Source of the DNA: Aquisphaera giovannonii | GTDB taxonomy: Bacteria > Planctomycetota > Planctomycetia > Isosphaerales > Isosphaeraceae | Direction: 5' to 3' | DNA: 64,000 nt | Assembly: GCF_008087625.1 (NCBI RefSeq) | Contig: NZ_CP042997.1 | Coordinates: 2,666,001 to 2,730,000, forward strand | Shown here: positions 38,859-41,944 of the stretch, piece after piece | Numbering within the stretch: position 1 is the first letter of the stretch | Layout: the number at the start of each line of letters is the position of its first letter | Program-made: the position numbers and the translations under genes | Notes under the pieces: generated by a model | The model's database searches: none | What the model was told of the DNA's origin: nothing | The model's input: only the letters and a program-made list of their open reading frames with translations

Positions 38859-40154
38859 TCAGCGGGGAGGGACCGGACCCGCCGCCGGTCGGCCGGCCTT
38901 CGGGCCGCCGGAACGGGGCGGGGCGGCGCCCCCGCGATTGGAGGCCGGTGCTTTCGGGGCTGCCGTTCCGGCCTTGGCGGACTCGATGGCAGCCGCCGGG
39001 CTGAGGAAGGGGAGCACGGTCTTGCGCCGCCCCCCCTGGAGCTTGACGACGACCGGCTTCGTCTGGGGATCGGACGGCGAGAGGGTATGCGAATCCTTCT
39101 TCTCCTCCGGCGTCCCTTCGTGCGTGATGGTCTCGAGCGTCAGCCGCGTCGTCGGCTTCTCCGGGTTCGAGTAGACCATGGAGATCCTCACCGTGTACTC
39201 GCCGTCGAAGCCCCTGGGGCAGACATAGATGTCCTCGGGATGCTTCCCGTACCCGTTCTTGACGATCGATCCGCCGAACACGGTGCGGGGTAGCAACTTG
39301 CTCGCCGAGGCGCCGAGCGGCTCGCTCACGACGAGGTCGTAGTCGGCGTCCCCGTCCCAGCTCAGCCGGATGAAGACGTCGCGGGCCTCGGCGGCGGCGA
39401 GCCGATCGAGGAGGGATTTCGCCTCGGAGGGCTTGGCATCTTCCCGGAGCGCCGCGGCCAGCTTCTCGACCTGGTTCCGGGCCTCGATGCGGTAATATTC
39501 GTCCTGCCCCGGCCAGCCGAGCGAGAGGAGCCGCTCGACCGCGTCTCCCATCCGACCGGCGTCCCTGGTCTTCTGCGCCAGGTTGATCATCATGACGAGG
39601 GGCTCGGACCGGTGCGGCACCTTTGCCGCCGCCTCGTCCAGCAGCGCACCGACGCGATCGTAGTAGCCCTTCAGGTAGAGCTTGTCGGCGGCGCTGACGA
39701 GGTCGTTCGGGTTGTGCGTCCGCTGAGCGAGGTCGGCGGCATAGTTCAGGGCCGTCTTCACGTCCTCCGGACGGCCGTTGTTCATCTCGATCGAGAGGGC
39801 CAGGGCCTCGTACATCCACGGCTCGCGTTGGCTGACCCGCTGCGTCAAGTAGCCGGTGAGCATGGCGTGGACCTCGCGGAAGCTCCTGCTGAGGTTGAGG
39901 ATCCGAAGCGCCTCGCGGAGTTTCTCGGGGCCCTGGTCGTGCGTCCGATAGAAGTCGGACCAGAACTTGTACGGGTCTGTATGCTCCGCCGGCCGGGAGG
40001 CCGCCGCCCTGCCCGGGGTGACGGGGACCAGTGCCCGACTCCCCTTATCATCCGTCACGACGGGGGGACTTGAAGGGCCCACCCTGGGCGAGAACCCGGC
40101 CTGGCCGTCCGTCTGTCGAGGCTTCGAAACGCCGTCGGGACCAGCCGGCAGCAT
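38859..40154 (-). CDS. Protein with TPR-like and DUF2135-like segments, probable frameshift extension
   Basis: The annotated ATG (40154) gives 431 residues. There is no signal peptide and no Shine-Dalgarno sequence before this ATG. Residues about 60-240 are helical and repeat-like. Residues about 250-345 contain RLSWDGDADYDLVVSEP, a pattern seen in exported DUF2135/YfaP-like domains. The C-terminus is Ala/Gly/Pro-rich. The same frame is open upstream through 40229, where it meets the A9 tract of the preceding gene. I infer that it is expressed as the C-terminal part of a fused exported protein rather than on its own. See the slip site at 40228-40236. Confidence 0.65.
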   Translation of the reverse strand: MLPAGPDGVSKPRQTDGQAGFSPRVGPSSPPVVTDDKGSRALVPVTPGRAAASRPAEHTDPYKFWSDFYRTHDQGPEKLREALRILNLSRSFREVHAMLTGYLTQRVSQREPWMYEALALSIEMNNGRPEDVKTALNYAADLAQRTHNPNDLVSAADKLYLKGYYDRVGALLDEAAAKVPHRSEPLVMMINLAQKTRDAGRMGDAVERLLSLGWPGQDEYYRIEARNQVEKLAAALREDAKPSEAKSLLDRLAAAEARDVFIRLSWDGDADYDLVVSEPLGASASKLLPRTVFGGSIVKNGYGKHPEDIYVCPRGFDGEYTVRISMVYSNPEKPTTRLTLETITHEGTPEEKKDSHTLSPSDPQTKPVVVKLQGGRRKTVLPFLSPAAAIESAKAGTAAPKAPASNRGGAAPPRSGGPKAGRPAAGPVPPR

Positions 40155-40219
40155 GGCGCCGGACTGGTCCCGAGGATCTGAGGGATTTGGGGACGAGGAT
40201 GAGCCCGCGGCGGCATCAC

Positions 40220-41944
40220 TCAGTTGCTTTTTTTTTGCATGAAGCTGCTGGCCGGATCCTGCGGGAAGGGCTCGATGGGTACGGACATCATGCCCATGCC
40301 GCCGCCCATGCCGCCCATGCCGCCCATGCCGCCCATGCCGCCGCCCATACCGCCACCCATGCCGCCCATACCGCCCATGCCACCCATACCGCCGCCCATG
40401 CCGCCCATGCCGCCGCCCATACCGCCGCCGCCCATGAGGGAGAAGGGGATGATGGCGAGGTCGGCGACCGGGTACACGCGGATCTCGGTCTGCTGATCCT
40501 CGGACGTGGCGGAGGTGATCATGAGGTAGCCGTCCTTGACGGTGTACGTCAGGCCGAGCTGCTTGAGCATGATCCGGAGCGTGTTCTTCAGGGGCACGCC
40601 TTCGAGATTCAGCGAGACCGGCGAGGTCAAGGTCCGGTCCGCCTCCTGGAGGCCCAGCGGGTCGACGTAGATCGGAACGCCCGAGTCATTGGGGCCCTGC
40701 GTGGCCTGCTTGATGTACTGGAGGACTTCCTCCAGGGGCGTCTCGTTGGGGAAGTTCATCGGGACGGGCTGATTCAGCTTCTCGATGATCTGCTTCGTCT
40801 TGGGGTCGCGGTCGAAGACGTCCACGGCCTTGCCGTAGCGGGCGATCCGCCGCTCGGTGAGGGTCCGGAAGCGCTCCGCGTCGGGGTACTCGATGATCTG
40901 ATCGTCGGGGAAGGGCACGGACGCCCGGGAGACGTCCTGCATCGTCAGCATGAAGCGGTATTCCTTCAACGCCTCGAACATCATCTCCTGCGAGAGGAAG
41001 CCCATGGCCGTCGAGACATACATGCCGGCGTACGGTGCGGGATCCTCGTCGCTGTACGGCAGGGTGCCGGCGTGCATCAGGGACCGTGCATGCTGGGAGA
41101 GGAGGCGGGCCTGGTAGAAGGGGGCCGTCGCCGCGGTGATGTTCCCGAGGCCGCCGGTGTAGAGCCCGTTGTAGACGCCCTCGCCCATGAGGATGTCGAA
41201 CTGGGTCATCATCGCCTTGATGGTCTGCTGATTCTGCTGGAACTGCGTGACGGCACGGGCCCGCTGGTCGGCGGCGGCCGCCAGCCGCTGGGTCTCGGCG
41301 CGCTCGAGGACGATGCGCTCCTCATCCCGGACCGTGTTCTGGATCTGGGCCTGGATGCGCCGGTCGAGCGTGTCGCGGACGCTCTGGGGCACGTTCAACG
41401 AGGACCGCACCAGGTTCTGTGCCAGGTGGAGGTTCGTGAGTGCCGCCTCGGGCTGGCCGGAAGCGACCAGGTTGCGAGCCGCGGAGAGGCGCCCCTCGAC
41501 GTCGCTGGTGAGCTGCTGCCGCGCGATCGTCTCCTCCTCGGTCGCCCGCTCGAGCGTCGCGCGGGGCCTCTCCGCGGGCTCGGGAGCAGACTCTGCGGCG
41601 GCCGGAGCCTGTGGCGGCGTGGCGCCCGCGGCCGGCGGGGGAGGCGGCGTGACCTGCCCGGGGGCCGGATCCTGGAATGCGACGCGGCGCACCTCGTCCT
41701 GGGCCGACTGGCTGTCCTTCAGCCCCCGGGCGGCCTCGGCGTTGCCCGGGTCGAGCTGGAGGGCCTTCTGGAAGAAACCACGGGCCATCGCCGGGGCCTT
41801 CTGGGCCAGGGCCTGGCGTCCGAGTTCGTTGAGCTGCGAGGCCAGGGGGGGCCCGTCCTCGCCCAGCACGGCGGCACCGGACAGCAGCATGCCACCCAGC
41901 GTCGTCAGCCCGGCGCCTTTCCACAGTCGCGCGGATCGAGACAT
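40220..41944 (-). CDS. Exported TPR/secretin-N-like protein with Gly-Met-rich tail
   Basis: This 574-residue protein has a signal (residues about 8-28), a TPR-like unit (QLNELGRQALAQKAPAMARG), a Pro/Ala linker and coiled-coil-like segments. About residues 395-490 form a secretin N-domain/STN-like region (PLEEVLQYIKQAT, then GVPLKNTLRIMLKQLG). Residues about 504-552 are almost pure Gly and Met in GGM units. Just after this tail the zero frame ends at MQKKSN in an A9 tract. A -1 slip there joins it to the next gene, giving a predicted 1028-residue product. Both forms may be made. The location is predicted to be the periplasm or outer membrane. Confidence 0.75.
   Translation of the reverse strand: MSRSARLWKGAGLTTLGGMLLSGAAVLGEDGPPLASQLNELGRQALAQKAPAMARGFFQKALQLDPGNAEAARGLKDSQSAQDEVRRVAFQDPAPGQVTPPPPPAAGATPPQAPAAAESAPEPAERPRATLERATEEETIARQQLTSDVEGRLSAARNLVASGQPEAALTNLHLAQNLVRSSLNVPQSVRDTLDRRIQAQIQNTVRDEERIVLERAETQRLAAAADQRARAVTQFQQNQQTIKAMMTQFDILMGEGVYNGLYTGGLGNITAATAPFYQARLLSQHARSLMHAGTLPYSDEDPAPYAGMYVSTAMGFLSQEMMFEALKEYRFMLTMQDVSRASVPFPDDQIIEYPDAERFRTLTERRIARYGKAVDVFDRDPKTKQIIEKLNQPVPMNFPNETPLEEVLQYIKQATQGPNDSGVPIYVDPLGLQEADRTLTSPVSLNLEGVPLKNTLRIMLKQLGLTYTVKDGYLMITSATSEDQQTEIRVYPVADLAIIPFSLMGGGGMGGGMGGMGGGMGGMGGMGGMGGGMGGGMGGMGGMGGMGGGMGMMSVPIEPFPQDPASSFMQKKSN
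40228..40236 (-). promoter_or_regulatory. Candidate -1 frameshift/slippage site (A9 on coding strand)
   Basis: On the minus strand the codons read CAA AAA AAA AGC AAC TGA. A -1 slip after the second AAA gives AAG CAA CTG and enters the frame of the downstream gene, which is open to 38859. A AAA AAA G is a classic slippery type, and A9 also favours transcriptional slippage. No stimulatory structure was computed. Confidence 0.6.
40288..40435. repeat. Coding minisatellite, 9-bp Gly-Met unit
   Basis: The plus strand shows variants of CCGCCCATG in tandem across about 150 bases. On the coding strand they encode the GGM/GGGM tail of the protein at 40220-41944. Such tracts are unstable in copy number. 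Confidence 0.85.

Follow-up and report, generated by a model that had tools for sequence, protein, structure and literature searches.

A conserved run of nine adenines that probably yields two proteins from one planctomycete gene, with a terminator-like hairpin inside the extension

The window analyzed here is a stretch of 64 000 nucleotides (nt) of the chromosome of Aquisphaera giovannonii (Isosphaeraceae; NZ_CP042997.1, positions 2,666,001 to 2,730,000), in which a gene on the minus strand is split into two open reading frames (ORFs) at a run of nine adenines (A9). Comparison of this junction with those of related genomes led us to conclude that a programmed slip at the run probably yields two proteins from the one gene, with RNA polymerase slipping at A9 and a hairpin further downstream serving as terminator. 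The short form would be a protein of 574 residues, and the long form would be joined to an extension encoded in the −1 frame. The run and the frame relation are conserved in every split gene that we read, as is the domain that the extension encodes, and the hairpin goes together with the split architecture.

The 574-codon ORF ends, on the minus strand, as AGC TTC ATG CAA AAA AAA AGC AAC TGA, and after the run the −1 frame continues as AAG CAA CTG AGT and onwards, open down to the stop at 38859. The product joined from the short-form ORF and the −1 extension has 1028 residues. An earlier note on this DNA, made from the sequence alone, had described the same run, ORF end, frame and joined length, all of which were as it had stated. 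It had also reported that the −1 frame is open from 40229 to 38859, which is correct, but the frame is open for 463 nt upstream of the short-form stop as well, and its openness in the window alone is therefore weak proof; the proof comes from the relatives. Runs of at least nine A were found only six times on both strands of the 10.5-Mb genome, as four terminator-hairpin-like T-tails (by inspection), one run in dnaX and the one at the junction, and this rarity makes the A9 at the junction more than chance. The four terminator-like runs, T9 tails on the opposite strand by inspection, lie at G000:C1:844009, 2065017, 3511007 and 8089562.

We fetched the loci of the family of the window genome (Isosphaeraceae, here f1) and read the junction in each. 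The downstream domain was present in 44 of 45 genomes, representing 21 genera. Both parts were found in split form in 41 genomes, and each of these had an upstream ORF with exactly A9 at its 3′ end, a stop 5 or 7 nt past the run, and the downstream domain in frame −1 relative to that ORF. The bases flanking the run varied, and its first A occupied codon position 2 in 39 genomes and position 3 in two (G023, G024). In two cases (G006, G026) a stop just upstream of the run closes the downstream frame up to 2 nt before A9, so that the shift must occur at the run. A second family (f2) gave the same result, with exactly A9 close to where the upstream ORF ends and a −1 relation in all 19 genomes read, although the run here mostly made up three whole codons (AAA AAA AAA C), unlike in f1. 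The short-form stop lay 0–27 nt past A9 in f2 and the open frame spanned about 490–590 codons; for G153 and G102 it is only inside A9 that the downstream frame opens, which again places the shift at the run. Exactly A9 with a −1 relation was thus found in 60 of 60 split genes, in three codon registers, which strongly supports the suggestion of the earlier note that slipping by −1 at the A run gives rise to a short and a long form.

A class-wide search, made with a single protein as query, found the downstream domain in 143 of 149 genomes of the class, while homologues outside the class were weak partial matches only. Throughout f3–f14, except in f2, f6 and a few contig-edge cases, a single open frame spanned both parts, its length being mostly about 1330–1600 codons. 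The earlier note had held that one-frame homologues with a run of ten A at this place would expose the split as an error, and the comparison that it proposed gave both conserved A9 in f1 and f2 and one-frame fusions in the other families; we read these fusions as an ancestral or alternative one-frame state, not as a sign of error in the window. The single-ORF homologues (e.g. L107-L124) are 300–500 codons longer than the joined 1028-residue form, and the upstream match begins well inside their frames, which gives them an extra N-terminal part. A third arrangement occurs in f16 (G155, L106, about 4088–4147), where a gene of its own encodes the domain and provides it with a signal-peptide-like N terminus. 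In the gene tree f1 and f2 formed separate clades, implying at least two changes of architecture, but a single clade was not rejected (approximately unbiased test, P = 0.33), and the split architecture was either kept from one origin or evolved twice in two planctomycete families.

The 110 nt after A9 were then folded in all 60 split genomes under a fixed scoring scheme, with windows of the same genes as controls. Nearly all split genes had a strong hairpin, in spite of greatly differing sequences (see also L046-L075, L087-L104 and L125), with mean scores of 38.8 in f1 and 35.7 in f2 against 21.6 ± 4.2 in controls, and mean folding free energies (dG) of −32 and −27 kcal/mol, respectively, against −14 kcal/mol. 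The median dG was −30.7 kcal/mol in f1 and −29.1 kcal/mol in f2, and the hairpin began at a median of 45 nt (f1) or 43 nt (f2) past the short-form stop, mostly within 40–60 nt, so that a stable GC-rich hairpin soon after the stop, as expected of a terminator, was found. Compensatory changes occurred at 11 of 13 pairs among 21 f1 genomes sharing one layout, with a covariation score of 0.572 compared to 0.244 after shuffling. The linkers of single-ORF homologues, though longer, scored 25.6 ± 2.8, which is background, and the hairpin therefore goes with the slippery architecture. The 3′ flank of the hairpin held TTT in 46% and 44% of cases, compared to 35% for gene-end hairpins and 5% for intragenic hairpins. 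Within the window, terminator-like hairpins follow three other genes, 39–49 nt past the stop and with short interrupted T-tracts (TTCGCGTTT, TTCGTTTG and AGTTTTGTTG); for comparison, the junction hairpin lies 44 nt past the stop and is flanked by CGTTTCG. Rfam gave nothing near the gathering score for the hairpin. The covarying terminator-like hairpin of the split genes is new here and goes beyond the earlier note. Its sequence features suggest that the short message has its terminator, or a leaky attenuator, within the region that codes for the extension.

With regards to the slipping machine, the earlier note had taken the site for a slippery heptamer of the dnaX type, which needs correction, as the run reads A AAA AAA followed by A and not A AAA AAG as in Escherichia coli. 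An in-frame A_AAA_AAA of the ribosomal type X_XXY_YYZ is nevertheless present in all A9 registers. Ribosomal −1 frameshifting is typically helped by a stimulatory structure about 5–12 nt downstream of the slippery site or by a Shine-Dalgarno-like element about 10–15 nt upstream, and some frameshift sites have no stimulator. Among the 60 folded genomes we found no conserved near-downstream stimulator, the best stems beginning only 43–74 nt past A9 in f1, and Shine-Dalgarno-like motifs at about −13 to −15 were seen in just two of the 60 split genes. Since sites without stimulator exist, this only reduces the probability of a ribosomal slip. On the side of the polymerase, A9 is conserved at the frame junction in 60 of 60 and the slipped frame encodes a conserved product, as would be looked for in transcriptional slippage. 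A stem-loop 5′ of the run, as known from Roseiflexus, was rejected, with hairpin scores at background in both f1 (15.2 against 14.9 in controls) and f2 (14.8 against 14.7).

The dnaX genes of f1 provide a comparison within the same genomes. A9 or A10 was found in 24 of 30 loci, in several registers, and the other two frames usually stop within about 30 nt; by analogy with Thermus, gamma and tau are likely made by slippage in these genomes too. No hairpin followed the A-run consistently among these dnaX loci. In the window genome, dnaX (G000:C1:4863573-4863582; L080, L170) has its A10 immediately downstream of the region that encodes the gamma core (TIGR02397, E = 1.9e-131), and both other frames are closed within 17 nt of the run. 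Five dnaX loci of one genus (G028-G032) had no run of at least seven in the longest frame. According to PMC1088944, selection against A or T runs becomes visible at length nine in many bacterial genomes. The exact nine in three registers, the lack of a near stimulator together with the few upstream motifs, the A9 or A10 of dnaX and this threshold at nine led us to favour RNA polymerase slippage over ribosomal slippage. Poly-A cassettes in E. coli shift by 63% at 11 A, 40% at 9 A and 10% at 7 A (PMC3711429), in an assay that reads the frameshifted protein product, and for that reason our preference for the polymerase is only a moderate one.

In the proposed mechanism, unslipped decoding would give the 574-residue protein with its signal-peptide-like start. 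Addition of one A by RNA polymerase would make the run A10, equal to a −1 shift, and bring the 458-codon extension into frame, whereby the slipped message would give the 1028-residue form, in which a TPR-like solenoid and a beta-sandwich follow a disordered linker. The hairpin 40–60 nt past the short-form stop would terminate the short message, whereas on a slipped message the translating ribosome may prevent the hairpin from folding, such that the long message would be finished mainly if the frame is right. The embedded terminator would then act only on unslipped messages, as a frame-sensing attenuator that couples slippage and termination through translation. To this coupling we give a chance a little short of even.

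Two explanations would remove the slip altogether. The earlier note had cautioned that A9 read in place of A10 by an assembly error would look the same, and homopolymers are indeed error-prone. One genome (G035; L040, A run at 2865) has A10 and a single long frame with the hairpin kept; it is a fragmented, 64%-complete metagenome-assembled genome, its genus includes three genomes with A9, and its A10 is either a real variant or an assembly error. However, independent assemblies of 60 genomes from two families, including finished chromosomes such as that of Singulisphaera acidiphila DSM 18658, show A9, and in every f1 case the close stop is followed by the conserved downstream domain. We therefore rejected an assembly error, and together with a recent frameshift mutation at the homopolymer it has a negligible probability; judged from these assemblies, the pattern of A9 and −1 frame is too well conserved for error or chance. 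The downstream ORF could instead be translated from a start of its own, as an independent gene; in favour of this, an ATG is available at 40154 in the window genome, and the separate gene of f16, with its signal-peptide-like N terminus, offers a precedent. That ATG sits within the hairpin and is not conserved, and among 40 f1 genomes, nine had no in-frame ATG, GTG or TTG between A9 and the folded domain, 16 had no ATG there and 32 had no start with a Shine-Dalgarno-like motif. The domain on its own would lack a signal peptide, yet it follows the same exported part in the single-ORF homologues, and an independent start would not account for the −1 relation with A9 in 60 of 60. With conserved starts and Shine-Dalgarno-like motifs missing, an independent start of the second ORF was rejected and is very improbable.

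Other explanations retain the slip but change the machine or the role of the hairpin, and several observations weigh against a polymerase slip combined with a terminator: the A_AAA_AAA in every register makes a ribosomal −1 slip equally possible at the level of sequence, three f2 genomes (G099, G102, G153) have a weak hairpin only, the window hairpin has fewer T in its flank than the terminator pattern of 5 T in 8 demands, and the 95.6% of cells found paired in the covariation analysis is inflated, as the segments were picked by pairing. If tRNA-Lys slipped on the heptamer, the long form would be made from a faithful mRNA, and the scaling of the poly-A shift with run length in E. coli (PMC3711429) agrees with this. 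However, seven A would suffice for a run that begins at codon position 3, and eight for one that begins at position 2, while the run is always exactly nine. The conserved f1 hairpin also lies far outside the usual stimulator spacing of 5–9 nt, the upstream Shine-Dalgarno-like motif is not consistent, and dnaX of the same family uses A9 or A10, so that we regard a ribosomal slip as unlikely. The slip may also occur as described with a hairpin that is no terminator but serves to shield the short mRNA at its 3′ end, or to hold back ribosomes in the linker during folding of the exported part. The short and displaced T-tracts in f1 speak for this, as does the failure of the window hairpin under the strict terminator pattern. 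The distance from the stop and the T-enriched flank, on the other hand, match gene-end hairpins and not intragenic ones, and the single-ORF homologues translate the same linker yet have no hairpin. We hold this alternative for a serious one, though clearly below an even chance. Slippage by the polymerase with a terminating hairpin is the reading that we retain.

The short form starts with a signal-peptide-like N terminus (by inspection) and is predicted from Pfam and AlphaFold2 (AF2) to continue with TPR repeats, long helices and an STN/N0-like domain, ending in a disordered tail rich in Gly and Met. In the window protein the Pfam matches to TPR_2 and STN were below the curated cut-off (STN, E = 4.6e-05), and at E ≤ 0.01 TPR_2 was found in 29 and STN in 24 of 38 relatives. 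The N0 domain of PilQ was among the Foldseek matches of the short form (E = 0.21, probability 0.97). Of the features of secretins such as GspD and PilQ, an N0/STN-type domain is hinted at in the short form by these weak matches, and the C-terminal beta-barrel was not found here: no Secretin barrel domain was detected in the window or the relatives, and the extension models as helices and a beta-sandwich. In the AF2 model, the extension begins with an 81-residue disordered linker, followed by the solenoid and the sandwich listed in Table 1. Its fold-match lists were filled by helical repeats (VIA-align Z up to 11.5), and PF09906 was found weakly in 12 of 40 relatives, with a best E of 0.0025. 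We infer from these models that the short form may be an envelope protein made by default, when no slip occurs, to which the long form would add a binding module.

Table 1. Features of the split gene in the window, with positions counted from the first letter of the stretch
Feature	Position	Strand	Basis or remark
Short form, 574 residues	40220..41944	−	ORF, Pfam and AF2; signal peptide by inspection
Slippery run, A9	40228..40236	−	Exactly nine A in 41/41 f1 and 19/19 f2 genomes
Short-form stop, TGA, 5 nt past A9	40220..40222	−	
−1-frame extension, 458 codons from within A9 to stop	38859..40235	−	Frame relation and domain conservation
Conserved hairpin, 44 nt past the short-form stop, within the extension coding sequence	40132..40175	−	Score 42 against 21.7 ± 4.2 in controls, dG −33.7 kcal/mol
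3′ flank of the hairpin, CGTTTCGAAGCCTCG	40117..40131	−	T-enriched like gene-end hairpins
TPR-like helical solenoid, extension residues 87–282	39387..39974	−	AF2, predicted local distance difference test about 92–99 per ten-residue block
Beta-sandwich, extension residues 284–398, weak DUF2135 similarity	39039..39383	−	AF2

Among known systems, dnaX of Thermus thermophilus is the closest with respect to the run, since an A9 run gives transcriptional slippage there (Larsen et al. 2000, as cited in PMC1088944); a nine-A run and two protein lengths are common to both, with the polymerase slipping in Thermus and proposed to slip here. Slippage in Thermus shortens the protein, however, and the longer product comes from the unslipped message, whereas here it would be needed for the long form, and here a conserved hairpin lies in the extension. 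In mxiE of Shigella, as given in the same source, a one-base insertion in a homopolymer by transcriptional slippage likewise fuses two overlapping ORFs, but the run consists of Us, the product is a transcription activator and the passage on it does not mention a downstream hairpin. Polymerase slippage is combined with an RNA stem-loop also in the Roseiflexus IS630 element (T5C5; PMC5009743), where the slip itself involves the nascent stem-loop; here the 5′ side of the run is at background, and the f1 hairpin, lying 43–74 nt 3′ of A9, cannot yet have formed while A9 is transcribed. Genes with ribosomal −1 frameshifting, such as E. coli dnaX and those of insertion sequence elements, share the A-rich slippery heptamer but differ from the genes studied here, which have no conserved near stimulator or upstream Shine-Dalgarno-like element. 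The literature found on slippage or programmed frameshifting in Planctomycetes consisted of one general survey with two planctomycete genomes, with none for Isosphaeraceae, and searches that covered few subscription papers found no slippage gene reported to have a terminator embedded downstream.

The gene described here would hence be a deeply conserved chromosomal slippage gene, seen in 60 genomes of two families, and not part of an insertion sequence or a virus. The restriction of the terminator-like hairpin to the split versions would link recoding with transcription termination, and to annotate the gene as two ORFs with no start for the second would be a mistake in both f1 and f2.

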